This document shows, one piece after another, positions 1 to 64,000 of a stretch of 64,000 nt of DNA. The position numbers and the translations under genes were made by a program. The stretch comes from Channallabes apus. Taxonomy: Eukaryota > Chordata > Actinopteri > Siluriformes > Clariidae. Position 1 is the stretch's first letter. Every line of letters starts with the position of its first letter. Location: positions 19,910,553 through 19,974,552 of the forward strand of contig CM060107.1 of assembly GCA_030522415.1 (NCBI GenBank), read 5' to 3'. Below the pieces are notes generated by a model that was not told where the DNA came from, did no database searches, and saw only the letters and a list, made by a program, of their open reading frames with translations.

Positions 1-567
1 ACAGTAACGAGAAGTGCGCAACACTTAAGACTCTCCTCCTCCTGGCCATCTTGTCTCTCCGGATGGTAGGTGATCTGGAGGTGCTCTCAGTAGTGCCATC
101 CTGCCGTGACTTTACCCCTGGGCTAGTCAAGGCATTTCTACATCCCAGGCCTGTATATATTCCCAAGGTCCGTACTAGAGTGACCAGGCCAGTGGTGCTC
201 AAGGCCTTTAATCCTCCACTTTCCTGACTCCGAATCAGGAGACACTGAACCTTATCTGCCTGGTCAGAGCCCTCCGTCACTATGTCCACGCCTCCTCAGC
301 GTGGAGACGGTCTGACCAGCTATTCATGTGCATCAGTCCTCCAAAAAGGGGCTTGCCAGCGACCAAGCATACACTCAGTAGATGGATTGTGGAGGTCATC
401 TCCATGGCTTACAGGGCAGTTGGCGAAGCCTCTCCGCTCTCAGTTCGTGCGCACTCCAACAGGGGTATGGCGGCCTCCAAGGCTCTGGCTGTGAGGGAAA
501 CACCTCAAGAGGTCTGCGATGCCACCGGGTGGTCCAACCCGCACATATTTGATAAATTACGTCTGTA
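1..567 (+). pseudogene. DIRS tyrosine recombinase, C-terminal fragment, broken
   Basis: Conceptual translation in shifting frames matches the recombinase better preserved at 60680-61858. A stretch resembling RMVGDLEVLSVVPSC corresponds to the KRIGDLHALSVSPSC arginine block of that copy, and a later HSNRG...GWSNPHIF corresponds to HSTRG...GWSSPHIF, the HxxR and W/H catalytic blocks. DIRS elements use this enzyme, rather than a DDE integrase, to insert a circular intermediate. Frameshifts separate the blocks and the final tyrosine block is degraded (FDKLRL), so the product would be inactive. The sequence differs from the other two copies enough to suggest a separate subfamily. Confidence 0.7.
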
Positions 568-856
568 AACCCAGTTCCCTGAAGGGGAACGAGACAGTGT
601 GTCACGTTGCCATACTTATATGCGCCTGGAAGCTTCGGAAGCTGTAGAAGGTTTGTCTGACACCTATTTATACTCTTCCCTGTGCCGACATCAGATGCGG
701 CTGCGTCACTGATGCAATGACATCGTAACTGTGGAGTTGATTAGATATGTCTTCAAGACGTGATTTCTGGAAAGCAATCCCCAAAGCTGTCACTTCATGA
801 TGCGGCATCTTGTTCCCCTTCAGGGAACTGGGGTTACAGATGTAACCCTAGAGACG
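1..856 (+). mobile_element. DIRS-like retrotransposon, 3' end (copy A)
   Basis: The window opens inside a DIRS-type element. Bases 1-567 hold degraded tyrosine recombinase coding sequence, and 568-856 hold the terminal region. A segment near 571-590 (CAGTTCCCTGAAGGGGAACG) reappears in related form near 813-832, matching the internal-complementary/terminal repeat layout of DIRS elements. The end TGTAACCCTAGAGACG resembles the end of the longer copy near 37490-37502 (GTAACCCGAGACG). The 5' part lies outside the window. Confidence 0.75.
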
Positions 857-1071
857 TTTTTCCATAATGAAATTATTATTTTTTTCCATAAATTATGGGT
901 TATATTGGTTTGCAAAACAAAACCTTGGTTTGTTTTCTTGATGGTAGACAAAATAATAAACAAATTTCCCTAACCAACTAACCTAATCCAAAAAATTAAC
1001 AAAAATTTCATTTATTCCCTCACGTTGTTGAACATACTGTAATTATCATGTATATCTTTACAATAATTATA

Positions 1072-1285
1072 CAAACCGGATTCCAAAAAAGTTGGGTCAC
1101 TAAACAAATTCTGAATAAAAACTGAATGCAATGATGTGGAGATGGCAAATGTCAATATTTTATTCAGAATAGAACATAGATGACATATCAAAAGTTTAAT
1201 CCGAGAAAATTTATCATTTTAAAGGAAAAATATGTTGATTCCAAATTTCACGGTGTCAACAAATCCCAAAAAAGTTGGGACAAGT
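1072..1285 (+). repeat. Left terminal inverted repeat (IR/DR) of the Tc1-like element
   Basis: About 215 bp complementary to 2441-2656. It contains an outer and an inner copy of the GTTGGG-centred putative transposase binding site. Confidence 0.85.
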
Positions 1286-1422
1286 AGCAATAAGAGGCTG
1301 GAAAAAGTAAATTTGAGCATAACGAAGAGCTAGAAGACCAATTAACAGTAATTAGGTTAATTGGCAACATGATTGGGTATAAAAAGAGCTTCTCAGAGTG
1401 GCAGTATCTCTCAGAAGCCAAG

Positions 1423-2436
1423 ATGGGTAGAGGATCACCAATTCCCACAATGTTGCGCAGAAAGATAGTGGAGCAATATCAGAAAGGTGTTACCCAGCGA
1501 AAAATTGCAAAGACTTTGCAGTTATCATCATCATCAACTGTGCATAATATCATCCGAAGATTCAGAGAATCTGGAACAATCTCTTTGCGTAAGGGTCAAG
1601 GGCGTAAAACCATACTGGATGTCCGTAATCTCCGGGCCATTAAACGACACTGCACCACAAACAGGAATGCTACTGTAAAGGAAATCACAGAATGGGCTCA
1701 GGAATACTTCCAGAAACCATCGTCAGTGAACACAATCCACCGTGCCATCCGCCGTTGCCAGCTGAAACTCTACAGTACAAAGAAGAAGCCATTTCTAAGC
1801 AAGATCCACAAGCACAGGCGTTTTCATTGGGCCAGGGATCATTTAAAATGGAGTGTGGCAAAATGGAAGACTGTTCTGTGGTCAGACAAGTCACGATTCA
1901 AAGTTCTTGTTGGAAATGTGGGATGCCATGTCATCCGGACCTAAGAGGACAAGGACAACTCAAGTTGTTATCAACGCTCAGTTCAGAAGCCTGCATCTCT
2001 GATGGTATGGGGTTGCATGAGTGCGTGTGGCATGGGCAGCTTGCATGTCTGGAAAGGCACCATCAATAACCTGAAAATATATTCAGGTTCTAGAACAACA
2101 TCTAGTCATCTCTTTCAGGGAAGACCCTGCATTTTTCAACAAGATAATGCCAGACCACATTCTGCATCAATCTCAACATCATGGCTGCGTAGGAGAAGGA
2201 TCCGGGTACTGAAATGGCCAGTCTGCAGTCCAGATCTTCCCCCTATAGAGAACATTTGGCGCATCATAAAGAGGAAGGTGCGACAAAGAAGGCCCAAGAC
2301 GATTGAACAGTTAGAGGCCTGTATTAGACAAGAATGGGAGATCATTCCTATTTCTAAACTTGAGAAACTGGTCTCTTCGGTCCCCAGCCATCTGTTGAGT
2401 GTTGTAAGAAGAAGGGGAGATGCCACACAGTGGTGA
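1423..2436 (+). pseudogene. Tc1-like transposase (DD34E), one nonsense codon plus an internal deletion
   Basis: Starts at the methionine of MGRGSPIPTMLRRKIVEQ. A paired helix-turn-helix DNA-binding region spans roughly residues 1-110 (QRKIAKTLQLSSSSTVHNII), followed by a GRKT linker. The catalytic core shows WSDKSRF (first Asp), QQDNARPH (second Asp) and SPDLPPIENIW (Glu). I count 34 residues between the last two, which makes it DD34E. The frame stays constant through the gene, but a TAA at 1942-1944 splits it, and about 20 residues after it the NNLKIYSG segment looks shortened against family norms. It lies wholly between the inverted repeats. It is non-functional unless the stop is read through. 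Confidence 0.9.
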
Positions 2437-2440
2437 AAAT

Positions 2441-2656
2441 GGCCTTGTCCCAACTTTTTTGGGATTTGTTGACACCATGACATTTTGATTCACCATATTT
2501 TTCCCTTAAAATGATACATTTTCTCAGTTTAAACTTTTGTTCCGTGATTTATGTTCTATTCTGAATAAAATATTGACATTTGCCATCTCCACATCATTGC
2601 ATTCAGTTTTTATTAACAACTTGTTTAGTGTCCCAACTTTTTTGGAATCCGGTTTG
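2441..2656 (-). repeat. Right terminal inverted repeat (IR/DR) of the Tc1-like element
   Basis: Reverse complement of the left end, with the CCCAACTTTTTT motif at about 2449 and 2631. Confidence 0.85.
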
Positions 2657-2963
2657 TACAAATGAAACAATGAAACACAAAGGGGAAAAACACAAACAAG
2701 GTCAACAAAAGGCAGAAGGCTAATATTTTGTTTGGTTTTACATCCATTGTCCATAAGATGATTATAGCAAAGTAAAATGTAAAATATGGTTTTATTGTTA
2801 TTAATATAAGTTGCAAAAAGCCATTCAGAAAGTGTAAAAATAGATAACAAATGCCTGTAACTTTCACTCAACCAAGCCTATGAATATCTTTGTAGCTAGT
2901 GTTGCTATTATCTTTGTAGCTAGTGTTGCTAGATATCTTCAGTGGTTTACCTAGTAACCTTAA

Positions 2964-4574: not shown

Positions 4575-4578
4575 TTAA

Positions 4579-6207: not shown

Positions 6208-6225
6208 CATACGTCATAGTACAGT

Positions 6226-6457: not shown

Positions 6458-6475
6458 CATACGTCATAGTACAGT

Positions 6476-8060: not shown

Positions 8061-8061
8061 C

Positions 8062-10029: not shown

Positions 10030-10448
10030 AACCAATGATGGAACAAATCTCCTTTGCGCCGCCGCCAATTGCGAACGGCCCATTTGTAACGATGTTCATC
10101 AGACGCAGTTGGTTTGACATAAAATTTTGCTGTGACAGGTGTGGTTTGCAGAAAAGATTCAGACAAATCAAGATCATCATTAAACTTTCGTGCTTGTGCA
10201 CATGTAACTACACATGATGGGAATACTGTAGGACATTGTTGGAAACAAAATCATTATTAACATAACTTATTGATTTTTCTGTCACAATAGGGTGAGGGAA
10301 AACAACACCACCTGCCAGGTCATTTCCCAGAATTAACTGAACTCCTTCAACAGGGAGTTCGGTACAAATACCAACACAAACTTCCCCCTTCACTATTTCT
10401 GTCTCAAGATGTATATTATGAAGTGGGACTGTGATACAGCCTGCTCCT
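10030..10448 (-). pseudogene. Protease C-terminal part and start of pol linker
   Basis: This continues the frame broken at 10460. A stretch VQLILGNDLAGG is the conserved C-terminal LGND/ILG region of Gypsy proteases. The frame stops at 10208, just after a second TACTGTA heptamer at 10224-10230. Ignoring five bases there, the frame runs on for some 60 codons into a KFNDDLDLSESF-like acidic linker that normally precedes reverse transcriptase. No reverse transcriptase follows. Confidence 0.7.
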
Positions 10449-10449: not shown

Positions 10450-11700
10450 CTATGCCACGTACAGTAAAATAACATCAGTGCCCGTGTAGGTTTTCTGAGA
10501 AAGTGAGAGTGTACCAGCTAACATCAGAGTCTGTGCTGCACCTGTATCTAGCAGGATGGACACTGATCTGCGAACGCCTTCAGGGCTGTCTGCCACCCAC
10601 CCCTGTAACATGAAAGGCTTATACACTGCCACTGTTTGATCAGGTAAGACATGTTTTGCTTGTCTTTTAACAAAACCCACAGACTTTGACTTCACAGATG
10701 CATTTTTTTTCTTCCAGGCCTCACAGTCTGAAGTCAGATGATCAGCACCTAAGCAGTAAAAACAGACTCTACATCCCCCTGAGCGATACTGAGAACTTCT
10801 AAAAGTGCCCCCTCTTGCAGGTTTCACACTGCCTGCTGAAGGTTTTACCTGCCTTTCAACCCCACGGACAGCAAATTTGTCAGTTCTCACAGTAGGAGAG
10901 AATACAGTACGGTGTGTCAACTCAAATTCATCAGCCAATACAGCGGCTGCTGACAATGACGTGACTTTTTGCTCATTTAGGTGCAATACGACATTTTCAA
11001 AAACAAAATTTTTTAAATCTTCCAACAATATTAACTCTTTAAAAGCCTCAAAAGTGGTAGCTTTCGTTGTAGCACACCACTTTTCAAACAGTGTTTGCTT
11101 TTCACGGGCAAATTCAACTAAGGTTTGTCTGTCCGTCTTTTTATGGGACCTAAATTTTTGTCTATAAGCCTCATACTCATACGCACATAGAACAGTTTGC
11201 TTGACCGTGTTGTAATCCAGGCTTTGCTCAACAGGCAGTGCAGAGCACACATCCTGCGCTTTACCAGTCAACTTACATTGTAACAAGAGAGCCCACATTG
11301 CTCTCAGCCACTGTAACGTAGCTGCCACACGCTCAAAAGCTATGAAATAGCTATCCACCTCGGTCTCTCTAAAAGGAGGTACTAAAACAATATGCTTGCT
11401 TACGTCGAACTGGTGTGGGGAGGTAGTCACTGGGGCAGAAACGAGAGAAGAAGAACCTGGCGCAGCCACTGCAGTTAATTGAGTGAACAATGGAGAAGCA
11501 GGTGTACTCTCCGGCGTGATCTCAGCCCGGTGTAGCCGGCTGAAATCTCGCCGAAAATGCTCCCTCTCCATCTCAAGCTCCAGCTCCCGCAACCGTAACC
11601 TTTGAGCCTCCGTTTCCTCCCGTTTTATTTCCAGTTCCACCTCCCTCGTTTTTAGAACCAAAAGTTGTTCTGATTTATCAACAGGTGTTATGGGTGGCAT
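10450..11700 (-). pseudogene. Gag-protease polyprotein with SCAN-like capsid, zinc knuckle and aspartic protease
   Basis: Open for 416 codons. Residues about 10-55 form a charged coiled coil. Residues about 100-255 match the SCAN-type capsid fold found in Gmr1-like Gypsy gag (SYFIAFERVA, LLQCKLTGKAQDVCSAL, VEFAREKQTLFEKWC). Residues 313-326 are a CCHC zinc knuckle (CFYCLGADHLTSDC, spacing CX2CX4HX4C), and residues 385-388 are the protease active site DTGA. The product would package and process retrotransposon RNA. The frame breaks at its C-terminal end exactly at a TACAGTA at 10460-10466; removing five bases puts it in frame with the protease remainder downstream. Confidence 0.85.
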
Positions 11701-11702
11701 GA

Positions 11703-11972
11703 TTACCTTATGCCTGGGGGCTGTGGAAGGTGACTGCGGTCTACCGTCGGCGTTGAAGCGTCCTTGTCCTCAGCACAGTCTCCAGGCACCCCAGGCAAAA
11801 TCTGCTGTTCAATTAATTGAGCAATAATGATTTTCTTTAGCTCCCTTTTCAAACATTTGTGTGGCACCTCCATCTGAAAAAAACCTGCTATGCTGAGCAA
11901 GTCATCTTTACGACACTGGTCTAGCTGTTCTAGGCTAGGAGCCAGTGTAAAGGATATTAAATCAAAAGCCAT
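11703..11972 (-). pseudogene. Gag N-terminal domain (Gypsy)
   Basis: The start is taken at the methionine of MAFDLISFTLAPSLEQLD, because upstream codons lie in the minisatellite. The domain resembles the short N-terminal module of fish Gypsy gag proteins (a hydrophobic start, CRKDDLLSIAGFF, then a basic helix LKRELKKIIIAQLIEQ). It ends at a TAA two bases upstream of the ATG of the next frame, 10450-11700. The two frames differ, so they were probably one gag gene split by a small indel, although two separate cistrons cannot be excluded. Confidence 0.6.
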
Positions 11973-12036
11973 TGTTCTACCACTACTGTCCAACCTAAGA
12001 AGGCAGCCAAACAAACCAAAAGCCCGAGTATACTCG

Positions 12037-12308
12037 ACAACAGACAAGCCCCCACTTGTTAGCAAGTAAATGGCAACGGACGAGCCCCTACTTGTTAGCC
12101 AGTAAATGGCAACGGACGAGCCCCCACTTGTTAGTCAGTTAATGGCAACAGACAAGCCCCCACTTGTTAGCCAGTAAATGGCAACGGACGAGCCCCCACT
12201 TGTTAGCTAGTTAATGGCAACAGACAAGCCCCCACTTGTTAGCCAGTAAATGGCAACGGACGAGCCCCCACTTGTTAGCCAGTTAATGGCAACGGACGAG
12301 CCCCCACT
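12037..12308 (-). repeat. 36-bp minisatellite made of repeated primer-binding sites
   Basis: About 7.5 units of 36 bp. Each unit contains, on the minus strand, TGGGGGCTCGTCCGTTGCC or its TGGGGGCTTGTCTGTTGCC variant, then CATTTACTGGCTAACAAG. Eight PBS-like motifs therefore lie at 36-bp spacing between the LTR and gag. Confidence 0.92.
12293..12306 (-). promoter_or_regulatory. Primer-binding site, tRNA-Pro type
   Basis: On the minus strand TGGGGGCTCGTCCG follows the LTR end after two or three bases. This is the classic tRNA-Pro primer-binding sequence used to prime minus-strand DNA synthesis. Confidence 0.7.
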
Positions 12309-13375: not shown

Positions 13376-13436
13376 CAGAGGTGGAAAGTAACGAATTACA
13401 TTTACTCGCGTTACTGTAATTGAGTAGCTTTTTTGT

Positions 13437-17044: not shown

Positions 17045-17310
17045 TTCATACACCGATCAGGCATACTACTGTGTAAGTTCGCCTTGTGCCACCATCTGGG
17101 GAGTTTGGAGGCCAGATCAACTGCGTTAAACTCTGTGCCTGCTCAGCCCCATACATGGAAGGCTGTAATGCACTACTGTACTGTAGGTGTTCTGATACTT
17201 TTCTGTTTTGCTATTTGCTACTTTGGCCCTTCTGTAGGATAAGTTTGGGGGGCTGGCCAGAGACATAAATGAGCCGTGGGTTCTCATGATCCTGTCACTA
17301 GTTTACTGGT
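17045..17310 (-). mobile_element. Tc1-like transposon relic B, heavily deleted
   Basis: CACCGATCAGGCATACTACT at the left end, GGGGAGTTTGGAGGCCAGATC, CAGCCCCATAC and GGTGTTCTGATAC are pieces, in order, of a very common fish Tc1-like element (minus-strand transposase), joined after large internal deletions. A double TACTGTACTGTA occurs at 17174-17185. Confidence 0.6.
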
Positions 17311-18651: not shown

Positions 18652-18768
18652 TACAGTGCATCCGGAAAGTATTCATAGCGCATCACTTTTTCCACATTTT
18701 GTTATGTCACAGCCTTATTCTAAAATGGATTAAATAATTTTTTTCCCTCAGAATTCTACACACAACAT

Positions 18769-21021: not shown

Positions 21022-21495
21022 TCATGTAGAGTATGCCATTACTACTGTATGTAGATATGAGCAAAGCTGCTCCGCTACTATCTTTTCCAGAATCTTAGAG
21101 ATAAAGGGGAGGTTTGATATTGGCCTGTAATTGGACAGTTGACAGGGGTCGAGGTCAGGTTTCTTAATTATTGGTTTGATAACTGCTAATTTAAAAGATT
21201 TTGGAACATAACCAATGCTGAGTGAGGAATTAATTATTCTCAACAGCGGTTCTGTTATTACTGGTACTATCTGTTTAAGAAAATGTGTCAGTATAGGATC
21301 TTATATACAGGTTGATGAATTTGCAGAAGAGATGAGTGAAATTAGTTCATTCTCTTCAAGGGGAGTAAAGTATTCAAGGTTTGAATCTGACATGGCTAGG
21401 ATAACATCTGTATCAATTACATTGTTCGGTTTCAAAGCCTCAATTTTATGCCTGATATTTACAATTTTATTATTAAAAAAGTTCATGAAGTCCAC
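21022..21495 (-). pseudogene. LINE ORF2 reverse transcriptase, N-terminal part
   Basis: Two consecutive frames carry the start of the reverse transcriptase domain: FKLAVIKPIIKKP and NYRPISNLPFISKILEKIV, the standard PLLKKPxLD/NYRPISNLPF motifs of this clade. Upstream, FTPLEENELISLI is the linker after the endonuclease. Frame disruption near 21043-21049 coincides with a TACTGTA heptamer, and removing five bases brings the following codons back into phase. Confidence 0.85.
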
Positions 21496-23674: not shown

Positions 23675-23978
23675 ATTTTTGTTTATTTGTATATGTATGT
23701 TATTAATATAAATTTTTTAGAGATTGTGTGTGTGCGTGCACGGAGAGTATGTGTTGATAAGTTTATGTGGATAAGTTGATAAGTGTATCAGAAAGCATTA
23801 AAATGTTCATTTGAATTAAAATGACACACACACGTCTGTATATACAGTATATCAATTACATATATATCAATTTCATTAGTTCGTTCATTCTATTTGAAGC
23901 TTCGGATGTTTGTTTTTTTCTTGGTTTGGTTAGATTAGTTCTGAACTCGCTTCCGTGAAACTATCGCTAAAACAATGT
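23675..23978 (+). repeat. Foldback inner arm B, left
   Basis: About 300 bp nearly identical to the reverse complement of 25827-26131, including GAGAGTATGTGTTGATAAG, GACACACACACGTCTGTAT and CTATCGCTAAAACAATG. The last ~130 bp also match 3258-3380 of the piggyBac-like foldback. Confidence 0.9.
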
Positions 23979-24225
23979 GTGTAAAACAAGAGTGTCATAG
24001 TCCATTGTTAGTTTTAATGATCTGGCTGAAACTAATTATCACTACATAAGTACCCTAACACCATTGATCATGAGTCTCAGCTGAACCTAATTCTATACTT
24101 GTAACAGAAAATGTAGATGCAGATTCCAAATGTGTATTTATATAATAGATAGATAGATAGATGTGTGTGTGTGTGTGTGCTCTACGCAGGGGCAAGAGAG
24201 GGCAGCGCACCCTTAAATGTCTGCA

Positions 24226-24314
24226 CATGTTAATATATTCCTAAAATGTATATATTACAAGTTGATAAACTGATCTGCGGTAGCGGAAAAATCCGCTGAA
24301 AATGACAGGCTGCA

Positions 24315-24350
<36 letters not shown>

Positions 24351-24833
24351 ACACGCGCGCACACACACACACACACCTCCCTTGAGCCCTGCGTCTGTCG
24401 GATTTCAGCTGTCACGGGGTGGAAAGACTTTGAAGCAGTTTATATATGAATCTAAGCTTGAACTTATCAGCATTGTAAATATATAATACTTTTCAAATAA
24501 AATCGCTATTACTTTGACCCTGAAGTTTAGTTTAGCACACACAAAAAACAGAAAAGTCTAAAGAAATAATCATGATTGATAAAATCTGGATTAAGGATAT
24601 TTTATTTTGTTTTATTTATTTAATTTGTATTTTTCATCTTCCCCCTGAGGGATTGCCACCTTATTGTGGTCAGGGGATTTGCGTGCCTCAGTGCTTGGAT
24701 GTTTACCGAGGGCTCAAGGGAGGTGTGTCTGTGTGTGTGTGTGTGTGTGTGAGTGCGCGTGCGGATTTTTCCGCTACCGCAGATCAGTTTATCAACTTGT
24801 AATATATAAATTTTAGGAATATATTAACATGTG
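24226..24833. repeat. Inverted repeat pair C
   Basis: 24226-24295 (ending TGCGGTAGCGGAAAAATCCG) is inverted at 24762-24833. Pair C interlocks with pair D, in the order C-left, D-left, C-right, D-right. Confidence 0.88.
24318..24378 (+). repeat. CA microsatellite cluster
   Basis: Two CA runs separated by TACACACACGCGCGCA. A GT counterpart lies at 24726-24752 and a looser one at 25398-25446. Confidence 0.9.
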
Positions 24834-25397
24834 GAGACATCATTATATGTTGAATGGAACTTGTAAGCCTTTGAATGGTGTTAAAAATACTTGCAAAACA
24901 AGTATTGCAGCCATACATTGGAGGGAACTTCTGAGGTGGTCAGTGATTGATGGCACGGTCGGTCGGAGGGGGTTGTGATCACACCTATAGATCTTTTGTT
25001 CTAGGCTATCGGTCAAATATCTCTCCACTTGGAAGCAAAAACATGCAAGGGATTTCAGCATCTCGACGCACATACTAAGCTGTTTATAAAGTAGACACTG
25101 TTTGTTTTTTCATTTTGTAATCTTTCCCGTGTTTACCGTGTACTGTACAATGTATATTCATTTTTTAATGAATTACTGTAAATAAACTACACATTCCGTT
25201 GATTTACCAGAAATGACTTTTCTGTTTTTTGTGTGTGCTAAACTAAACTTCAGGGTCAAAGTAATAGCGATTTTATTTGAAAAGTATTATATATTTACAA
25301 TGCTGATAAGTTCAAGCTTAGATTCATATATAAACTGCTTCAAAGTCTTTCCACCCCGTGACAGCTGAAATCCGACAGACGCAGGGCTCAAGGGAGG
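24377..25397. repeat. Inverted repeat pair D
   Basis: 24377-24558 (containing GGATTTCAGCTGTCACGGGG) is inverted at 25215-25397 with very few differences over about 180 bp. Confidence 0.9.
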
Positions 25398-25826
25398 TGT
25401 GTCTGTGTGTCTGTGTGTGTGTCTATGTGTGTGTCTATGTGTGTGCGTGCGCGCGCATACTTCTTCTACTGTTATAAAAACAAACTAAATACAGCTTTTT
25501 TTTCAGAGGTAAACGGAAAAGTGAAGATGTTCAGTGTCACTATGCAGATGTTACACTCAGTGGAGTTACCGAAATCATTTGTTTAGTCCTCATCATTTCC
25601 ACATTTCACTCGCTTTTATTCCTCTTATGTGAGCATAAACAGTGAAACATTCCACAGGTTTATAATACACCGGGGCCAAGTGAACCACGTTCCTGTCAAA
25701 CGAAACGAGGCATAATCGTGGTGTTTGCTTCGGTTATGACACACCATAGTTTATTACCTGCTGTGGTAGATCTGATTATTTATCCAAACACAATAATAAA
25801 GCTTTATATCCTCAGGAGGGCTCAGT

Positions 25827-26131
25827 ACATTGTTTTAGCGATAGTTTCACGGAAGCGAGTTCAGAACTAATCTAACCAAACCAAAACAAAAAAAAAACAT
25901 CCGAAGCTTCAAATAGAATGAACGAACTAATGAAATTGATATATATGTAATTGATATACTGTATATACAGACGTGTGTGTGTCATTTTAATTCAAATGAA
26001 CATTTTAATGCTTTCTGATACACTTATCAACTTATCCACATACACTTATCAACACATACTCTCCGTGCACGCACATACAATCTCTAAAAAAGTAATATTA
26101 ATAACATACATATACAAATAAACAAAAAAAT
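25827..26131 (-). repeat. Foldback inner arm B, right
   Basis: Reverse complement of 23675-23978. The adjacent 25490-25826 continues as a reverse-complement match to about 3380-3650, so this side carries a longer piece of the piggyBac-like element. Confidence 0.9.
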
Positions 26132-28284: not shown

Positions 28285-28956
28285 GAGTGGTTCCTACTAC
28301 ACACTGATTTACGCCTACGGAGTCCAGTATGGACATAAATGCTGTTCTCAGAGGGTCTTCTGTTTTCTCAAAATTAATGTTAAAATCTCCGGCAATTAAC
28401 ACTTTGTCTACAGAAACGACTAGGTTTGAGATGAAATCTGCAAATTCACTAAGAAATTCAGAATACGGCCCTGGAAGTCTGTAAATTATAATTAGTGGAA
28501 TCGACTGAGCTGATTAAATATACTTAAATACACTTATGTTACTATAAAGAATTTCAAATGAGTTAAATTTGTGTCCGTGTTTTTGTACGATAGACAGATT
28601 ATCATTGTAAATAACTGCGACGCCTCCTCCTCTACCAGTTAACCGAGGCTGGTGTATGTAGCTGTATCCAGGAGGACTAGCTTCATTTAGAGCTACATAC
28701 TGTACTCATCCTGTTTAACCCATGTTTCAGTTAAACAGAGTATATCAAACGCCTGATCTGTGATAATTCCATTAGCAATAACCGCTTTTGATGCGAGAGA
28801 TCTAATATTTAACAATCCTAGCTTCAGATCAGAGGTGCCGGCTGCGCATTTAGTGTGATCCGAGTTTGTGGTCTCTATGTTAATTAGATTATTGAAACAG
28901 ACTTTCTGAGTCTTTCTACATTTTTGCTTAGATCGGGGGAACAGACACAGTCTCAA
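28285..28956 (-). pseudogene. LINE ORF2 endonuclease, N-terminal part
   Basis: The first catalytic blocks are present: LLNIRSLASKA (Asn), ILCLTETWV (Glu), and after an internal break, LIAGDFNINFEKTEDP (Asp-Asn of the GDFN motif). The frame stops near 28696 where a TACTGTA (28698-28704) lies, and deleting five bases reopens it directly into the expected continuation. A further stop interrupts near 28516. The segment ends at 28285 where the composite insertion begins. Confidence 0.9.
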
Positions 28957-35451: not shown

Positions 35452-37080
35452 TAAATCGCCAGGGCGGACTGCGCTCACACCGCTTGAATAAGCTAGCGCA
35501 CCAGGTTCTGCTTTGGGCACAGGACAATTTCCTGTCCCTCAGGGCGATTTACATTCCACGGCATATGAATGTGGGAGCAGATTTGCTGTCCAGTCAAGCT
35601 CTGACACACGGGTAATGGAAACCCTACCCCAAAGTAGTCAGTCAATCTGGGAGAGATTTCATGTACTGTAGCAGAGGTGGACCTCTTTGCCTTGCAAGAA
35701 ACAGCAAAAGTCCTCTTTACTACTCTCTGACTCTTCCAACTCCCCTGGGTCTGGACGCCTTGGCCCATACATGGCCCAGATTATGCCTTTATGCTGTTTT
35801 TTTTCGATAGCGCTGCTCCTGGGAGTCTTGGAGAGGGTCGTCAACAGGGTTTGCACCTCTTACTGATAGCGCCCCATTGGCCGACCAGAATGTGGTTCTC
35901 GGATCTAATATCTCTCCTCGACGGCTCACCGTCGGTGATTCCAATGACGAGGGATCTTCTGTCTCAGGCGCAGGGGACAATATTTCATCCCCGACAATAT
36001 TTCGGCCCGAGCTCTGGAACATTCACGTCTGGCCCCTGATCGGGACCAATTAAGAGATACTGGTCTTAACCAGCCAGTGTAATTGAAACTATTTTAAGTG
36101 CTAGGGCTCCCTCCTCTAGAAGAACATATGCCCTCAAATGGAGTGTATTTGAAAGTTGGTGCATGGCAAAACATGTAGACACAGTCCACTGCCGAATCGT
36201 TTGAGTGCTGGAGTTTCTGCAAGAAAGTTGTCCTCGGGCTTATGCCCTACATCTCTCAGAACGTACGTAGCCGCTATTTCGGCTTGTCATTGTCTGACTG
36301 ACGGGGTTTCTGTGGGAAAGCACCCTTTAGTTGCCCGTTTTATTCATGGTGCTAAACGGTTGAGGCCGCCCACTAGAGCCACTGTCCCTTCTGGGGACTT
36401 ATCTATTGTGCTCGACGGTCTAATTGACACCCCTTTTGAACCACTAGAGTCAGTGCCTGTTAGGTTTCTGACACTTAAGATGGTTTTTTCTCTGAAGAGA
36501 ATCGGAGATCTGCAGACTTTGTCAGTCTCTCCATCTTGCCTAGACTTTGCCCCTGAGGTGGTCAAAGCTATTCTGCATCCTCACCCGAACTATCTTCTGA
36601 AAGTTCCATTCTCAACCATGCACCCAGTTGTTCTCGAAGCATTCTGTCCTCCGCCTTTTACAGCTCCTGAGCAGGAAAGACTTCACTTACTGTGTCCAGT
36701 ACGTGCTCTTCAGAATTACGTCCACCTCACTAGCCAGTGGCGTAAGTCAGAGCAGTTTTTCATATGCTACAGGGACCACAACCGGGGGGCGGCCGCCATT
36801 ACAAGTTGTCACATTGGGTGAGACATGCTATTGCCCTAGCCTAGAAGGCACGTGGTCTCACTTCTCCTGTAGGAATCAGGTCTCATTTGACCAGGGCAAT
36901 TGCCTCATCTGTTGCGCTGGCAAGAGGTGTCCCCCTGCAGCAAGTGTGTCATGCGGCAGGTTGGTCCTCTCCGCACACGTGTCAGTTTTTATATTCTGGA
37001 TGTTCATGCTACTCCAGGCTCACAGGTCCTCGAATCAGCCTCCCAGAGCTAGCTTGGCCTTTGTGCGCACACGCTACACA
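35452..37080 (+). pseudogene. DIRS RNase H end and tyrosine recombinase, broken (copy B)
   Basis: 35452-35620 continues RNase H (reading like NRQGGLRSHRLNKLAHQVLL). From about 36060 the recombinase appears: HPLVARFIHGAKRLRPPTRA, LKMVFSLKRIGDLQTLSVSP (catalytic Arg; four residues before SLKR are lost compared with copy C), LTRAIASSVALARG (HxxR block with the His changed), AGWSSPHTCQFLYSGC (W/H and Tyr). Several frameshifts separate these. A TACTGTA at 35664-35670 is absent from the matching place in copy C. Confidence 0.85.
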
Positions 37081-43383: not shown

Positions 43384-45282
43384 GGCAGTACTGGAAAGAG
43401 GGGAGAATCATTTTTAGTAAGACAACAGGTCTAATAACCTTACTGTACTGTATGTCTTCTTAAACAACACTTTGTCTCCTTAGTAATTGCTTCTACATCA
43501 TTCTGATGACAAATTGCCTCTGAACTGTCCGTGTTTTTCTTCTCATGGCTAACATTATCAACAAATCTAACCAGCTTCAAGACAAGGTTTAATCTCAAAT
43601 CCCTCTCTAACCCCTGAGTTAATCCCTATTTGGGATTCAACCCTAGAACCAATATACTACAGCAAATTTCTAAAGAAGAAACTACTTTCAATAAACATTA
43701 ATCAACTGTTGGTCGCTATCTGTCGGTCGGCAGATTTATGTTGGTAGAGCAAAATAACTGGTTAAATAAACAAACAAACTATAATCTGTTGATAATAAAT
43801 GGTGTTTGTCGGACTGTTGTATGCAATATATACAACAGTATATACTGTATATAAGACCCACAATTGAGGCTGATATTCAGTACAACAGAAGTCCATCTTG
43901 TGTGATATTGCTTAAATATAGCACTCAGTCCTAGTAGAAAATACTTTACATTATGGGCTATGCTTGTCTGTTTAATACCTTCCCTTAGCTTATAGCCCCT
44001 TAATGCTGCTTAGTTAGAGGATCTCTCATAGGGGACTTTTTCATTATTCCTAGACCTCAATCTATTTCTGTCTTGAACATGCTCAAATGGAAAAATAGTC
44101 CAGCACTGACCCCTGAAATTAAATGGCCAATAATTTCAATAATATGTGCAAATGCAAATCAGTTGGAAATGGTATTTTGTAAGAAAGTGGGACATACCAT
44201 GCCCACACCTGCTCCTCATTTTGGTAGCATGATCAGTTTCAATAATTACTTCCATTACATGTGCCAATCAAGATGTTCATCATGTTATCCACAGTAGTGG
44301 TTTAATCCCCTCATTTTGAGTTTTCTACGATCACTTTTTCAATGACAAGTCTTAGAAATAATTTTATTAAATGTTTTTTTTAAATGTATTAGAACAATTA
44401 CTATATTGAGCAGTAAATAGTAAAAGAACCAATAAAAAAATCAAACCATAATACCATACTGCAAAAATATGTGGAAAAAAACTATGTAAAGTCAAATTAG
44501 GACATCTAAGAAAATTATTTTTCTGTTGTTACAGGCTCTTTGGAAGACTTTGGAAGTCTTTTATCCCTGAAAGTTAAATACAAGATACATTGATTACTTT
44601 TTTTAAAAATCTGAAACACTTTCTTTAATATGGTTTTAATTTAAAAAACTAAAAGAAATTCTTAGACAGTTAAAAAAAATTACCATCTACCAAACTATTG
44701 CTCCATTTATTTTTTTAAATAAACGTTAATGCTGTACATTGCTTGTTTTGTAGATTTTGGAGCTTATTACAGTAGTCTAAATAACAATTATATGAGTCAG
44801 GCTTGAAGACTATCAGAAGTCATAGTGTGTTTATAAATAAGCTTGCCAACATAAAGCAAATTTAGAGTTCATGTAGTTATGATACTTTGTCTCCTTATAA
44901 GTTGTCCTATCATTGTATGAAAACATCCATAATCTGTAGCCTATGATATCATAGACACTATAGTGGTCTGTGGTTTGTGATTGGGTAATGTAACTCAATC
45001 GCAAATGATTATCCCATGTAGTAAGTCTAAATTCAAGCCATTGTTACATAGTTTTATGGCACTTTAATTTCTGGCCACTGGCGCTCTATGAAAAACACTT
45101 TCTGATATTGATTGTATAGGTCCGCAGGACATCAACTGAAAGCATGCTTTCCTGCTGGCTGTTCATTTTTCCAGTCAAAGTAAACTATTTTGTTTGAAAA
45201 GGCTAGGCTTATACATTAATGAACCTAATATTTTGTCCTGTTCACTTTGTTCACCTGCTGTGAGACAGCTATCTGTAAAGAA
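43384..45282. other. Spacer without recognisable gene
   Basis: About 1.9 kb of AT-rich DNA. A double TACTGTACTGTA lies at 43441-43452 and a TATATACTGTATATA palindrome near 43845. Confidence 0.55.
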
Positions 45283-48590: not shown

Positions 48591-49291
48591 ACATCGCTCC
48601 CGTTTTGCAAAATCTGCACTGGCTCCCTGTTAAATACTGTAAAGTTTTTCTAAAGTTTCGTAGTAGAAGAGGCGAGTTGCTCAGTCTGTCCGCTGTGCTT
48701 CGGTAAGCTTTTCTGGCGCCAGGAGAGACTCAGTCAAACACACACACAGGTTGTCTGTCAGAAAGGTCTCTGTTTATTACAGTTTTTCTCGATTGCTAAA
48801 ACACATTACTGGAAAGCTGCTCTCCTTTTCCCTAAACTCTGAACACAAAACCCAATTTTCAAGCTACATTCACAAAACCTCTGACTTTTCTTGCAAAACC
48901 AAACTTTCATCCCAAAACAGTTTAATCTGTTCTCAAAACTGAACTATGCTGTCAAATCATGCCTCAAGTCAATATAAATTAAATACTCTACTGAGTAGTC
49001 ACGAAACACTACATAGAAAAAAGGAAAACACAATGCTCAGGACATGAAGCGGTAGAAATAAATGTTTATTTAGGCTAAATGCATGTTGCAAAATAAAATA
49101 CTTGGGCATTTTTAACACGTGTACATAGAAAACATAATTTGCAAAAAAAAACAGAAATCCTGTGCATTTACATGTAGCACTTGTACAGAGAATTAAAGGA
49201 CAAAAATATACAAATTAAGTACTACGAAAAGAAGTGCACTACTCCGCCACAGCATCATTTCCCCGTGATGGTTCAGGCCACAGGACTTCAG

Positions 49292-49790
49292 CTACATCAC
49301 AGGACACATTTTCTCTGGCCAGGCAACGGGGGGAAAAAACCCTGGCATGCCGGATCCAGGCTTGACATCACAGGCCACACCCATGTCACCACAGGCCACA
49401 CCCATGTCACCACAGGCCACACCCATGTCACCACAGGCCAGTTCCATGTCACCACAGGCCAGTTCCATGGCTTGCAGGAGATTTACCCTGGTGAAAGGTT
49501 GGCGTTCATATACTTTCCACTGCCATGAGGAGAAGAATTCTTCAATGGGGTTCAGGCAAGGGGAGTACGGTGGAAGGCAAAGATTGATAAAACCTTGGTT
49601 CATATTGAACCACTCTCTAAGCTAGAGGCCTCTGTGAAAACTCACATTGACCCAAACAACAACAACGATGGGCTGCTCATCCTGCTGCCCTAACAGAGCA
49701 TCTCGCATGTGATCCTTCTCCTTTTGGTTGAAGATTAACCGACCTCCTCTCACACAAACTCCTCTTCTTAGATTTCTATCCATTGTAGTG
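49292..49790 (-). pseudogene. IS630-like transposase with 7-residue repeat expansion
   Basis: From about 49790 the frame gives IFNQKEKDHMR, then VVVVWVNVSFHRG, where the second catalytic Asp (usually DNVSFH) is replaced, then a TAG, then LCLPPYSPCLNPIEEFFSSW with the catalytic Glu. QAMELACGDM follows and is expanded into five ACGDM units encoded by a 21-bp minisatellite, after which the expected tail is frameshifted (PGFFPPVAWPE). The first catalytic block is not found. Inactive. Confidence 0.82.
49372..49482 (+). repeat. 21-bp minisatellite within transposase
   Basis: About five units of CATGTCACCACAGGCCACACC, the last two with CCAGTTC in place of CCACACC. The length is a multiple of three, so the frame is kept. 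Confidence 0.93.
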
Positions 49791-50551
49791 CCTCACAAAC
49801 CAGTGCTCTGGCTTATATGTACCCTCACATCATTAGCCAAAAGTGTGATAAATTTTGAATTGTTGTGTTCAACCGGTGACACCTGAGCTTTAATTGTGTT
49901 TGACTTTTGCCGCCTGTGCTCACCATTATGCAACACAGGTGCATCACAATGACAATGTGTTGACAAGATGTGTCTAAACAGGTGAAAAGCGCTTACGGTT
50001 TTGCCAAAAGAGTGACTGATTCAATAAGTGGGTTCAGGCAACTGAGAATTTGGTTCAGACAAAAGGGTTTAGTGTTTTAGCAATCGAGAAAAACTGTAAC
50101 AGCAAAAGAAGTGTTTTATATATGTTTGACCAAACGCCTGTGCTATAGACATATGTTACTACAAAGAACATGAACCATTGTAAATGTCCTGGTGAGATCC
50201 TGAAGAATCAAAGGAGAGGAAGATAGAGAGGTGTCTGTCCAGAGACAGATCACAAGATGTTGGCTCGAGTTAGGGGGAGAGGGGGAAGGAGACAGAGGGG
50301 GAGAGAGAGGGGGTAGAGAGGGAAGGAGACAGAGGGAGATAGCGGGAGAGGGGGAGAGAGAGGGAGAGAGATAGACATAAAGAGAGTATGGGAAGGTGAG
50401 CGTGGGAGCGTTCACACCTTTAAGAACAGATGCAGGAGGAGACAGGAAGATAGCAGCAGGAAAGATTTAACACGTTAATATCAGATCTATGAGGAAGAGA
50501 GCAAGAGAGTATAAATAACTCCTTTATATATAAAATAATTCTAACAAATAC

Positions 50552-51795: not shown

Positions 51796-52942
51796 CAGAC
51801 CAAATCGTCATTAGCACGTCCCTCCCACAAAGAGCGCAGCCATTTACTTTCTTTCCATTTACAGTACTTACATCTGAACTGAGTCGTTTACATAAGTCAC
51901 TGATCAATAGCTCATCATATCAATTTATTCATACAGATGTACGTGTTTTTGCATATTAATCTGAGTCCTCATCTGTTACATTTTTGAGGACAATAGTTTT
52001 TTCAGCCTGTCACGGCGTGCGCCCAAATCAATATCGCTCCTCGCTCACTAGTTACTAGTTACTTCTAGAACTTTATGGGATTAAGCTATCACCAAAAGTG
52101 CAAGCTTTAAAGATGAAGTTATCATCTTAAAACATTTGATATGGCTTGACTACAAGTCTTTACATGTTCAGTGTTTACATGTTCGCCTTAAAATGTTTTA
52201 ATGCGTTAAGGTTTCAATGTCATACTTTTAAGTCCACTAGTCCAGAGTGCTGATTTGAATGTTGTAACTTCACTGCTTCAGATGGTTATTAGGTTTTAAA
52301 GTTTATTCTACAGTTTGTTTAATGTATTTTCTACTGTATTTTATTTCTAAACGAATGCTGTATTTTATTTATTTATAATTATTTGTTTAAAACAAGTATT
52401 TCAGGCTCTGATGCCGTGCAGTTGTTCCTACGGATGCAAAATTTAGCTGAATACACTTTTATTAAAAAGACAACCTGTATCTAGACTGTGAATGTCAAAA
52501 ATATTTGGTAATGTTGGTGAATAAACTGTTTAATTATATATTAGCTGTGTGATTTATGAAAGATATAGATGAAATAATTACTTAAGTTTCTTTCCAAAAC
52601 ATAAATTAGCAACATTTACATTATTATAGGGAGTAATATAAATTGATAAAACCAAGTAAGTAAAAATCTCACAAAACAAAATGATAGTAAGATTTACTTA
52701 ATAAGTTCATAAAATCAAGGTTCCTGCTGATACAAGAATAAATTAACTTTACTTGATTATTTGAAATAAATCTAAATTATGCATTAAATATATAATGAGG
52801 GATTATGTAACTTTTACATGATTTCTTTGATTGTTAATTTAATTGTTAAGTAGATTTTACCTGACAATTACGGGTGAGTTTTACTTCATATTGGAGCAAT
52901 AAAATTTACTTAAAATCTATGTGTGCAAATTGTTACAAGGAG
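50999..52942. other. Repeat-derived non-coding region
   Basis: No gene. 51660-51745 (GTCTTATAAAGGCTATGTAG) matches 22755-22815. 51784-51945 is a direct repeat of 53780-53930. A CA array lies at 51766-51794. These suggest a relative of the composite element at 22104-28284. Confidence 0.6.
51784..51945 (+). repeat. Direct repeat pair, first copy
   Basis: About 155 bp (CAGCAGACCAAATCGTCATT ... CAATTTATTCATACAGATGT) nearly identical to 53780-53930. This copy carries an extra five bases, a TACAGTA at 51860-51866, where the second copy has TA. Confidence 0.92.
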
Positions 52943-53107: not shown

Positions 53108-53729
53108 CCCAAGATTTACTCAAGTAAAGTAAAAGATTTACTCAAGTAAATCTTACAAGTTCTTTTTTTTCAGTGTAGGTTGTTGTTCTTTTAGTGTCAC
53201 TGTGTGTGCTTTACAATGCCAGACAACATTCAAATGCAAATTATTCACTCCCCAGGTGTAAATCAGCTGTTCTCACCTATACTGTACATTCAGAGAAACT
53301 GAAATGCACCTCTCCACACTTTAAAAACCTCTTGAATCTGAGGCTCTTCTGAAGACTTTCAGTCCACTTTTTAAATTTGTGTAAATTTAATCTTCTAGAT
53401 TCCAGATTCTAAAGTTGACATTGTTACCGTTTTTAATCCTTGATTGGGAGAAATTTTGATTTTCCTTATGATAGCACAAATTGCATTGTCACAATAATAT
53501 TTATTGATATTTTTATTTAACAAAAAATCAGGTATGGGGCTATCTTGGGTTATTAATCCTCGTGCCTGGTTTAGTATTCAGTGCGCACCGTACATCTGTT
53601 ATTTTACAACTATATCATAACACTCAGAAAGACCTTTTATTTGGGGTTAAGTGACTGATTTTTCAGCTGAGCCTCGTTTCACTGAATAATCCACGACTTT
53701 TCATGAGTATGTAGGACCTTTTGACACCC

Positions 53730-56897: not shown

Positions 56898-57047
56898 GAA
56901 AAAACAATGCTAGACCAGGATGCCCCCTTCAAATTTCTCACTGCCACAAATATTAATTAATGGTCTGGTCTAGGACCGGCCCTGCTCAAATGCGCCTAAC
57001 AAATACTGTGGCAAGGTGGCCTGGGTCAACCCATGATTCATTCATCC

Positions 57048-59059: not shown

Positions 59060-60350
59060 GGAGAAACTGGCAGCGTGGAAGCTACTGCCAAGTATATCTC
59101 CTTGGGTACTAAGCACTGTAGAGAGAAGCTACAGGATTCAGGTCTCACACGGCCCTCCGTGTTTCAACGTCGTGGTCTCCACTTCCGTGAAACCGGAAAG
59201 GGCGCATCTGCTGACAGAGTTTGCTGGTAAAAAGGGCCATAGAACATGTTCCCCTACCAGACAAAGAGTCAAGCCACTACAGTCGGTATTTCTTGGTTCC
59301 CAAGAGGAACGGGGGGCCGCGTCCAATTTATTAAAAATAAATAAATACAGTACAGCTTCAAAATGTTGACTGTCAAAGTGATTGTTCTCAAATCCTACCA
59401 AGCGATTGATTTGTGACAATCGATCTGAAGGATGCATACTTTCATATAGAAATATTGCCACAACACATGTGGTTCCTGAGGTTCGCTTTCGGGGGCGAAG
59501 CTTACCAGTATCGGGTCCTTCCATTTGGTCTAGCTCTCTCACCCGCACATACACAAAATGCATGGATGCAGTTCTGGCTCTTTCAACTCCAGGGCATCTG
59601 GCCCAGTCTCATACTGTATGCTAGCGCTTCGACATCAGGATATCGTCCTAGCTCACCTTTGTTCATTAGAATTGAGACCCAACGCCACAAAAAGCGTGCT
59701 CTTTCCTGTTCAGAGGACAACATATTTGGGTGTCACATGGGATTCGATCATAAGGCGGGCACAGCTGTCTCCCGCTCATGTCGAATCCATTCTCAACACC
59801 CTCAAGGAAATCAAGCTAGACCAGAAAGTGACTGTTCATCACTTTCAGAGATCTTTAGCTCTCATGGCAGCTGTATCCACGGTGATAACTTTGGGCCTTC
59901 TGCACTTGAGAGCATTTCAGTTGTGGCTAAGAACCGGGGAATTTCACTCGAGGGCCAATCCCCAATAAGGTTTATGCGCCATGGGCTTCATACCCTTTCT
60001 ATGTGGTTCAGACCGCGGTTTCTGACTCTGCGTCCCACTCTAAGTCCGTCTTGTCATCACAAGATGCTAACGACAGATGCTTCCCTCACGGGCTGGGGTG
60101 CGGTCTTAGATGACCGTCCAGTCTAAGGGAGCTGGAGAGGTCATCTTCTCGCGCGGCACATTAATTGCCTCAAAAAGGATGGCTCCACTTCTGGCCCTAA
60201 AGCACTTCCTCCACCAGTTGAGAGGCTACCATGTCCTAGTGTGGGTGGATAACACTACGGTAGTCTCATATATTAATCGCCAGGGCGGACTGTGCTCATG
60301 CCACTTGAATAAACTAGCGCACCTGGTTCTGCTTTGGGCATAGGACAAGT
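59060..60350 (+). pseudogene. DIRS reverse transcriptase-RNase H, broken (copy C)
   Basis: VKPERAHLL and VPKRNGG-like segments, then an open stretch from 59413 with TIDLKDAYFHIEILPQHMW (motif A Asp) and YRVLPFGLALSP (motif B). The YIDD motif-C segment is deleted near 59600, where copy B still has it. Further on come TTYLGVTWDS, TTDASLTGWGAVLDD (RNase H first Asp) and LLALKHFLHQL with VWVDNTTVVSYINRQGG (further RNase H residues). TACAGTA at 59346-59352 and TACTGTA at 59612-59618 are insertions relative to copy B. Confidence 0.85.
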
Positions 60351-61858: not shown

Positions 61859-61939
61859 TTCTTTAGTTCTTTATGGGACTGACCTCGGCCTTTGTGCGCA
61901 CACGCTACACAACCTTGGGGTCCAGACACTTTCACTGCG

Positions 61940-62258
61940 GCGGCGTTGGTATTCTCGTTCCCATAGCATTTTCACACAGCATCGAATCTAGCCTTTGAAA
62001 GGGAACGTCTCGGGTTACTTTGCTGTAACCCTGTTCCCTCCAATGCCGCACTGCCTGCGTGACCGGACATCCCTTCAGACAAATTCGATCTTAGCAATGT
62101 TTCCGGTTTAAATCACCTGACTGAGGTTATATAAGAAAAAATGTGACGTGTTTGATACACACATGCTTCACAACCAGCAACACGAAAAGATGTTCCCATA
62201 GCGTTTTCACGCAGCATCTCATTCCCGCCTTTTCAGATAACAGAGTTACAGCAAACTT
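61940..62258 (+). repeat. DIRS internal complementary region and right terminal repeat (copy C)
   Basis: CATTTTCACACAGCATCGA then CTTTGAAAGGGAACG (61970-62010) is complementary to the DIRS left extreme. CACACATGCTTCACAACCAG to AGCGTTTTCACGCAGCATC (62156-62218) is the inverted terminal repeat. Confidence 0.8.
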
Positions 62259-62880
62259 CTTTACTACTTTTCAGGACTATGATGCCACACATGGAAATAA
62301 GGCAATAGGCAATTTTATGCAGTGTGAATTGTGTTGTGGGACACTGCCATTTTGTGATCACAATTCTCATAAGTGGGCCGTGCAGTTAGGAAAGATGTAC
62401 CCTCGTGATTTCATCATAGCAATGCTTTGTGTGCAGCGAAGCAGACAGTGGTTTCCGCAGCTATTTACTTTCATTAGAGCTTTGAGACTGTGGGTAGTTG
62501 TGTGCTCCAGTGGCACTAGAGCAATGTTTTCCTTTATTTGAGCTTTCTGATGACACCATTTGTTTTGTGCAGTCATTAATAATCTGCATTCATTGAATAA
62601 TTAGTGGTTTAAATAAAATATATGGGTATATTCTAGATACAATATAAAAAGGCACATTGTAGACTATGCAGACAAAGAGTATTTATTCAAAGGTAATTCT
62701 TTTATTTGGTCTAAAGTGAACTTTTTATTTATTTATTTTTTATTTTAGGACAACCAGAGGTCCAGTAACATGCAGCCATGAGGTTGATAAAAGTATATGT
62801 GCTTGCACATCTAAATCCATAATCCAGTCCAGTCTGAATGTTAGCCCACTCTCACCTTTTGAAATGTAGCAGAATGATAT
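62259..62880. other. Spacer without recognised gene
   Basis: An open frame of 132 codons (62143-62541) starts inside the DIRS end and shows no domain. Not accepted as a gene. Confidence 0.5.
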
Positions 62881-63755
62881 CAGTGGCGGCTGCTCTAAGC
62901 CTACAAGGGAAGCTCAGCTTCCCCTACTATGTCAGTAAATAAATGACCATGACCCTATTGCCACATATAGGGTATTTATATTGGTTTTAATAAAGTTGCG
63001 CTAGCACGCGTTCAATTTCATGACTAGCTTGTTTAGAATCAGGTATTTATTGTAGATTGTTTGACACGATTTTCTTGTCATACATTTCCGTGCCGCACAG
63101 CGCATTAAACCCTCCCCCTGAAGCCCAGCTTCTCTGAAGCTCTATGGGGAAGCACAGACTAGCTTTTTTCACTGCAGAAAAGCTGGACGGTAATTGAATA
63201 AATGCACCAAAATCGTCACTTACAGGGAAGCTGAGCCTCTCTGGGGGTGAATGAAGCAGTGGGCGGGACGGGATGCTGGGCTGCTGCATGATGATTGGAG
63301 AAGCTGTTTAAACGGCGGAACCCCTTTTTGATTGACAGCATGTTTTAAGTATACATCAGCGCTACAGACAGCGCATCGCTATTCCATTTTTAGGGGGGCT
63401 TTTTTTTTGTAATAAATATTGTTTTAAATAATGTCCCAAATCGTAAAATACTTTTATTAGCCTTAGAGTAGGGTTTCTGTCACTTTGATTTAGAAAAAGT
63501 TACTTTTTTACTGAATAGAAACAAACAAAAATAAAAGAATGATATTGAAAAGATGCTTTGTTTAATTACATTAAAACAATGTTTGTCTATATTAATGAAT
63601 TTGAATAAATAGCCTAGTACAGATTCGAGTTCAGTCCCATGCGGATTTGCAGGTGATTTTTTTAATGATAAATTTAATTATAATAAAAAATTTTATGATG
63701 AAGGCCAAATATGAGCTTCCCCTGTTACAAAAGCTAGCAGCTGCCATATTTATAT
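62881..63755. mobile_element. hAT-like non-autonomous element, degenerate ends
   Basis: The left end CAGTGGCGGCTGCTC continues to GGGAAGCTCAGCTTCCCC, and the right end near 63710-63752 reads, on the minus strand, GGCAGCTGCTAGC ... AGGGGAAGCTCA, an imperfect inverted match. The CAGTGGCGG start and GAAGCTCAGCTTC palindromes are typical of a common fish hAT family. No 8-bp duplication is clear and there is no transposase. Confidence 0.5.
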
Positions 63756-64000
63756 TACATCCATGTATGGTCAATAGCCATTTTCTTTTTCATGATTTAG
63801 CAATCACAGGCGAGCACATTACAGGACACTCTCTATAATGTCAGGTAACATTTGTCTGGAGTGTAAGCTCATGCTGAGTGCAAGCCCTATTTCCTGTCTA
63901 CCTGACTTCCGGTATTGATGCAGCTCCTTTGAATACTGCCTATTTTCCCTCCAAAGCTATTGTCACATGGAACATGGCTGGAAATTGCTGTTGCGAGCAG
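63756..64000. other. Window end, no feature recognised
   Basis: Short unassigned sequence. Confidence 0.4.

Follow-up and report, generated by a model that had tools for sequence, protein, structure and literature searches.

Excision of Sleeping Beauty (SB) leaves three-base 3' overhangs, which are joined by end joining to give a footprint (PMC7827188). The two consensus SB footprints are TACAGTA and TACTGTA, which insert 5 bp, and over 300,000 sites of this form (TACWGTA) are present in the mouse genome (PMC4378557). Here, we have analysed the occurrence of the same two words, which are one word read on opposite strands and are hereafter counted together as the heptamer, in the fish Channallabes apus, starting from a stretch of 64,000 nucleotides (assembly GCA_030522415.1, contig CM060107.1, positions 19,910,553 to 19,974,552 of the forward strand; hereafter the window, to which all positions refer unless another stretch is named). 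The heptamer was strongly over-represented both in the window and in the whole genome, and most of the excess copies are, very probably, footprints of cut-and-paste transposition by Tc1-like elements with CAG...CTG ends.

The sites described here resemble the SB footprint in that the two heptamers are the same, the gain over an uninserted TA is the same five bases and the target is TA (PMC4378557, PMC7827188). However, the SB footprints are experimental, with about 100-200 candidates per tumour, whereas those of C. apus are natural and their excess is roughly 0.8 million. Natural excisions have also been read from genome sequence in rice, where a comparison of two genomes yielded 94 putative excisions, eight of them perfect and most of them with deletions or filler, and where insertions outnumbered excisions (PMC4423477). 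In contrast with rice, one clean footprint form was counted here, and its number lies far above that of the resident CAG-ended copies that were counted. In zebrafish, the element ZB is likewise Tc1-like, prefers a palindromic AT target and leaves footprints of 0-3 bp, but the accessible part of that report describes the element and assayed footprints, and no genome-wide scar count was noticed in it (PMC7913693). In a review of fish mobile elements, 'excision' appears a single time and 'footprint' is absent (PMC7599744). A limited literature search, which left most subscription journals outside, found no report of the CAG/CTG footprint in genome-wide excess. The footprint chemistry is already known; the scale and the imbalance between scars and elements look new within that search.

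The original prediction, made from the letters of the window alone, had put the heptamer at about 70 occurrences by eye and had read the excess as excision scars. The exact count was 71 (41 TACTGTA and 30 TACAGTA), against 12.3 expected from base composition and 10.8 expected from a second-order Markov model; the GC content, estimated there at about 36-37%, was in fact 40.2%. With an observed/expected ratio of 6.6, the heptamer was by far the highest among the 32 strand-merged TAnnnTA classes of the window, the remaining 31 of which had 2-46 occurrences and a next ratio of 2.3-fold (TAGCCTA, 10 vs 4.4). Neighbours differing from the heptamer by a single mismatch reached 0.4-1.4 of their expectation in the window, the A/T exchange itself excepted. 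On statistical grounds, about 60 of the 71 heptamers at positions 1 to 64,000 are above chance, and individual scar status is assigned only to the sites named below. The runner-up class was considered as a second scar type (TAGGCTA/TAGCCTA, 29 vs 12 in 200 kb) and rejected, as its count in the sampled stretches was raised by a single repeat family with a common flank, to which many of the sampled copies belonged.

The excess was confirmed as real and genome-wide. The genome of 1,164,683,209 bases contained 979,603 heptamers (489,833 forward and 489,770 reverse), compared with 260,532 occurrences of the reversed word ATGTCAT and 82,780 of the composition-matched control TAGTCTA (41,237 and 41,543), so that the count proposed earlier as a check came out far above both this control and the Markov expectation. 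The latter, obtained by scaling up the masked rate, was about 165,000-174,000, which leaves an excess of roughly 0.8 million. The heptamer density was 0.84 per kb genome-wide and 1.11 per kb in the window, which is about 1.3 times the genome mean. The mouse genome is about 2.7 Gb long, and at this length its TACWGTA sites have a density of about 0.11 per kb, which is near the background that the Markov model gives for C. apus (about 0.145 per kb).

The same trend was observed in smaller samples. In 20 stretches of 10 kb from 20 contigs, 135 heptamers were found against 31.3 expected, and the heptamer ranked first by z-score in these 200 kb when simple repeats and homopolymers were set aside. 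Five additional 10-kb stretches contained 48, giving 183 in all 25 stretches. It should be noted that these stretches were picked by us at round coordinates and were not a random draw, and that one of them (L024) has 1,424 masked bases. Together, the window and the 25 stretches comprised 312,576 bases with 254 heptamers, where a Markov model built with the heptamers masked predicts 44-47; the control words TAGTCTA, TACGTTA and TATGCTA occurred 19, 21 and 35 times in the same DNA. Another eight stretches (L001-L008) had been obtained via a heptamer-containing pattern; they were used in the paralogue tests, and density and flanks were counted without them.

For the paralogue tests, the window and the sampled genome stretches L001-L033 were aligned against themselves. 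An aligned paralogue was available for 38 of 293 heptamer sites, and in 16 of these 38 it was exactly five bases shorter at the heptamer. Among control TAnnnTA words, 355 of 1,720 sites had a paralogue and only five of the 355 showed the same difference; one of the five was an overlap of the scar at 59612, and another (TAGAGTA, 21027) was possibly a decayed scar. In a smaller first dataset, the proportions were 13 of 27 heptamer sites and 5 of 250 controls (Fisher p=2e-11), and the partners of these 13 had plain TA in 11 cases and a TA altered by one base in two (L020:4435 and 53280). The three sites added in the larger set (L029:942, L029:9319 and L031:292) are known by their length difference only, the TA of the partner being unseen. 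Viewed from the other side, the heptamer accounted for 12 of 25 clean 5-bp insertions between repeat copies (11 of 24 when a twice-listed site is counted once); the remaining 13 included none with a TAnnnTA flag. Where many copies could be aligned, the heptamer was the exception: 17 of 20 copies were five bases shorter at L004:2544 (the other three had other gaps), four of four at both L017:1794 and L017:1921, five of five at L020:4435 and five of six at L011:7672. Since a single copy has the heptamer while the other copies are five bases shorter, these differences are gains of five bases. At L013:8803, a ten-base gain (TACTGTATGCTGTA) was seen against TATA in the partner copies shown, and is perhaps two adjoining scars, one of them decayed.

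Within the window, the prediction had named four heptamers with a plain-TA paralogue five bases shorter, and alignment bore out three of them. TACTGTA at 35664-35670 (plus strand) is matched by TA in the window copy at about 60.3-62.3 kb, TACAGTA at 51860-51866 (minus strand) by TA in the copy at 53.7-53.9 kb, and TACTGTA at 59612-59618 (plus strand) by TA in the copy at 32.3-34.5 kb. The fourth, TACAGTA at 59346-59352 (minus strand), lies within an AAAT microsatellite in which the pairwise difference is no clean five bases, and as a five-base site it is left as ambiguous. TACTGTA was also found as a scar at 53280-53286 (plus strand), where the counterpart in the window, near 26.8 kb, lacks the five bases and has a one-base change in its TA; at 28698-28704 (plus strand) in a repeat whose partner copy in L023, 94.5% identical, has TA; and at 21043-21049 (plus strand) in a LINE-like (reverse transcriptase) repeat, where three partner copies are five bases shorter, with TA, and two have other gaps. 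Sixteen base pairs from the latter, the possibly decayed TAGAGTA at 21027-21033 (plus strand) corresponds to TA in the partner copies, four of which are five bases shorter. For 21043 and 28698, where the prediction had expected the loss of five bases to restore a frame, the evidence comes from these DNA paralogues. The repeat alignments suggested with the prediction thus showed the heptamer as a five-base insertion in single copies, with TA-only copies present. The regions at 33.3-37.2 kb and 59.0-62.3 kb are two related copies of a long repeat, each of the scars 35664 and 59612 being present in only one of them; by eye, the frames of this repeat look like reverse transcriptase.

The central base of the 254 pooled heptamers was T in 130 and A in 124 (p=0.75), and the C/G-centred form TACCGTA/TACGGTA occurred 13 times against 6-8 expected. 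When two CAG overhangs pair, an A:A mismatch lies between them, and its repair in either direction leaves A or T at the centre. The equal frequency of the two central bases is predicted by the repair of this single mismatch. The flanks were analysed in the same pool after folding about the centre. AYA preceded the left TA in 95 of 508 half-sites (18.7%) compared with 169 of 3120 control half-sites (5.4%; p=5e-21, half-sites being treated as independent), and, relative to control, the triplets ACA, ATA and ATG were increased 4.4-, 3.0- and 2.9-fold, respectively, with TTT at 0.14-fold. The preferences found in the window also emerged when the 20 stretches were analysed on their own (p=4.5e-7 for Y at -2 and p=1.4e-5 for A at -3). 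Insertions of Tc1 have AYATATRT as their 8-bp consensus (PMC9635669), and the AT-palindrome target given for ZB, ATATATAT, is described as similar to that of SB (PMC7913693). The heptamer flanks show this Tc1 target preference, AYA-TA-TRT.

Tandem heptamers were also observed. There were seven double heptamers among the 254, so that 2.8% of heptamers were followed by another, compared with 1.1% of all TA, and a triple heptamer was present at C1:310131/310136/310141, among the first 100 genome places listed. Therefore, the TA inside a scar can be struck again. Two tandems of the form TACTGTACTGTA in the window, at 17174-17185 and 43441-43452 (both plus strand), are probable double scars; no empty-site paralogue of either was found in the window and the sampled stretches. 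The target signature in the flanks, the doubled and tripled scars and the site at 53280 had all escaped the original prediction.

Reading frames provided a separate view of the same gain. A gag-like SCAN-domain retroelement pseudogene, whose relatives are named Ty3-type Gag-Pol in Labeo rohita, lies on the minus strand at 10450-12065, and the unmended pseudogene was compared with six homologous proteins taken from 120 listed of 204 found. At TACAGTA (10460-10466, minus strand), where a frame break had been predicted, six of six homologues pass from frame -3 to frame -2: the -3 match stops at 10465 in five homologues (10453 in the sixth), and the first position of the -2 match is 10462 in three, the others having 10441, 10429 and 10507. 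The break fits this heptamer tightly. A second predicted break, at TACTGTA (10224-10230, plus strand), stood as regards the frame change, which is from -2 to -1 in all five homologues reaching it, but less well as regards its place: the -2 match runs to 10295-10238 and is followed by a -1 match from 10244-10232, so that the break falls within about 15 nt upstream, on one side of the heptamer, an offset that could be due to alignments extending by chance. A five-base insertion would shift the frame in the direction seen at both breaks. A further frame change of the pseudogene, near 11720-11800, has no heptamer. As had been foreseen, not every heptamer is a scar. The one at 10903 is in a frame that the six gag homologues cross unbroken, those at 1671 and 1771 are in the open transposase frame of a Tc1-like element (1070-2658), and those at 13412 and 19551 are present also in other copies of their repeat.

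Most of the excess heptamers are best explained as excision scars, formed as follows. A CAG-ended Tc1-like element would insert at TA, favouring AYA-TA-TRT, and the TA would be duplicated. The transposase would later excise it with a three-base stagger, leaving a three-base 3' overhang, CAG, on each flank; the two overhangs would pair by their outer bases around the A:A mismatch, and end joining would give TA-CAG-TA or TA-CTG-TA, which is five extra bases. Repetition of these steps over recent evolution could have produced the roughly 0.8 million intact scars of the 1.165-Gb genome, some of them re-hit to double and triple forms. The excess, the five-base relation, the equal frequency of the two central bases and the target preference are observed directly, and from them we infer transposase excision as the cause, its age and a source family or families that are now scarce or so far unrecognised.

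The scars appear to be young. In the same DNA as an excess of 168-170 intact heptamers, the one-mutation neighbours numbered 324 against 290 expected for transitions and 577 against 541 for transversions, which suggests a mean scar age of about 5% divergence or less, although these excesses of 34 and 36 are barely above noise. Several scars were carried by repeat copies that share 90-96% identity with copies lacking the scar. In 30.5 kb of aligned sequence (26 overlapping alignments with at least 88% identity), 1,012 substitutions were accompanied by 19 scar differences, that is, on the order of one scar per 50 substitutions, an order of magnitude only, as the alignments are not independent and contain about seven distinct scars.

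Elements that could have made such scars were rare in comparison. The prediction had named two Tc1-like elements with CAG ends. One of them, at 48778-50098, is complete, with inverted repeats matching at 24 of 24 positions (CAGTTTTTCTCGATTGCTAAAACA), TA on both sides and a weak DDE_3 match in a short frame; its transposase appears to be damaged. The other, at 18652-18760 (plus strand; the right limit is arbitrary), proved to be a single CAG end (TACAGTGCATCCGGAAAGTATTCA...), which we take to belong to a second Tc1-like family. No matching partner end was found between 14.0 and 23.5 kb, and the copy is probably truncated. Genome-wide, the ends of the 48778 and 18652 families numbered 67 and 476, respectively, when one 24-26-base end per family was counted with at most one mismatch, these two being the only CAG-ended families counted. 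Some ends of the 48778 family were 4-7 kb apart on opposite strands. For the 18652 family, 16 ends lie within 0.83 Mb at C3:55.25-56.08 Mb, and 13 of these are on the plus strand; a tandem duplication that carries the element may be the cause.

A search for TA-CAG...CTG-TA inverted-repeat pairs, with at most 3.5 kb between the ends and within the 10-kb stretches and the window, gave six in 314 kb, of which only 48778-50098 resembles an element end. The other five were rejected because they belonged to simple sequence or to larger inverted repeats; the pair at L021:8914-9995, tried as a second complete CAG-ended element, was also set aside, its inverted repeat running about five bases past TA. 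Eight query proteins revealed eleven Tc1-like transposase loci in 338 kb, mostly without definable ends. Around one Tc1-like transposase stretch (L016:4042-7206), an inverted repeat has arms of about 1 kb that are 99.4% identical, and its outer ends are not CAG. The scars exceed the counted CAG-ended residents about thousandfold, an imbalance that the original prediction had also missed. Because the scars vastly outnumber the two resident CAG-ended families to which it had pointed, the evidence does not identify those elements as the source. The scars may come either from a rare lineage that jumps often or from other CAG-ended families missed by the narrow searches.

Several points weigh against the footprint explanation and should be set beside the evidence above. 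First, 22 of the 38 paralogue-bearing heptamer sites had no partner five bases shorter: the heptamer was common to a copy in 12, three showed substitutions and seven had other gaps. Some of these sites are background and some are older. Second, a depletion of G at -2, tried as a target signature, was rejected, as the 4.9% of the window was not replicated in the 20 stretches (14.9% vs 17.5%). Finally, no CAG-ended resident family large enough to be an obvious source was found (67 and 476 ends genome-wide, one complete element in 314 kb).

With regard to the source, it is a real possibility, to which we give slightly less than an even chance, that the genome carries a near-saturating transposition odometer, that is, that a low-copy CAG-ended Tc1-like lineage, either almost lost by now or still active, jumped nearly a million times in the germ line within a few percent of divergence, so that its main genomic mark is excision and not resident copies. 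Alternatively, the scars could be real and their makers still numerous, as degenerate, non-autonomous or unrecognised CAG-ended families, so that scars exceed makers only a little. We consider this less likely than not, but it has points in its favour. The end search, limited to two families, one end each and at most one mismatch, overlooks copies that have diverged; pairs were sought only at spacings up to 3.5 kb and inside 10-kb stretches, whereas the spacing of some 48778-family ends is larger than 3.5 kb; most of the eleven transposase loci have undefined ends; and L021:8914 is a possible further family, although its inverted repeats seem to extend beyond TA. However, the excess heptamers in these 314 kb number about 200, and only one of the six pairs found there resembles an element end; moreover, makers of scars that are so little decayed should still be recognisable.

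It is very improbable that the excess consists of copies of high-copy repeat families, in which the heptamer would be an element end or an internal motif and not a scar. Such inflation does occur in the runner-up class TAGGCTA, and the 12 of 38 paralogue-bearing sites at which the heptamer is common to repeat copies, for example 13412 and 19551, are of the kind that this explanation would produce. Nevertheless, it does not predict the five-base relation, and it is largely refuted by unique flanks: those of the 71 window heptamers differ by eye, one inverted-repeat pair excepted, and the clustering of 958 TACAG starts from the window and L001-L028 gave no large family, the biggest being a simple repeat (10) and one of seven. 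The excepted heptamers, at 23843 and 25957, each occupy one arm of the same inverted repeat. It is scarcely credible that the heptamer was raised without transposition, by biased mutation or composition or by selection for microRNA or binding sites: in a CFTR reporter, TACTGTA functions as a miR-101 seed match (PMC3197680) and a few sites could be selected, but the one-mismatch neighbours are near expectation, the two strands are equal, and neither the five-base gains nor the AYA-TA flank, both of which were found, is predicted.

Other features of the window include the Tc1-like element at 1070-2658 (plus strand), which was absent from the original prediction. It contains the heptamers 1671 and 1771, matches HTH and DDE_3 and has inverted repeats identical at 24 of 24 positions that start with CAAACC. 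As it is not CAG-ended, this scar is not expected from it. For its N-terminal part, the relatives listed first (81-92% identity) come from Xenopus tropicalis, Pygocentrus nattereri and Polypterus senegalus (86% of query), which may hint at recent horizontal spread. A large, near-perfect inverted repeat, with arms of some hundreds of bases, occupies 23696-26108 and has further inverted repeats nested within it at 24231-25332.

Transposon activity is usually judged from the copies that remain, whereas here each jump is represented by one heptamer and could be counted, and the total is orders of magnitude above that of the recognised candidate makers. For the genome itself, each scar in a coding exon would be a frameshift, and assembly and variant studies of such genomes would meet five-base insertions constantly. 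A scar in a 3' untranslated region, on the right strand, would be a new candidate miR-101-type site. The base before TACTGTA was A or G in 166 of 254 cases, and A or G followed by TACTGTA would presumably be an 8-mer for miR-144 or miR-101. If the odometer reading is true, hundreds of thousands of miR-101/miR-144-type seed matches were seeded as a by-product, because every scar reads TACTGTA on one strand. If other repair products at excised sites are rarer, the clean form would favour one dominant end-joining route in the germ line. More generally, the excision history of a vertebrate may be measured by word counting, so that bursts could be dated and species compared, and this would allow testing whether elements that jump often can stay rare.

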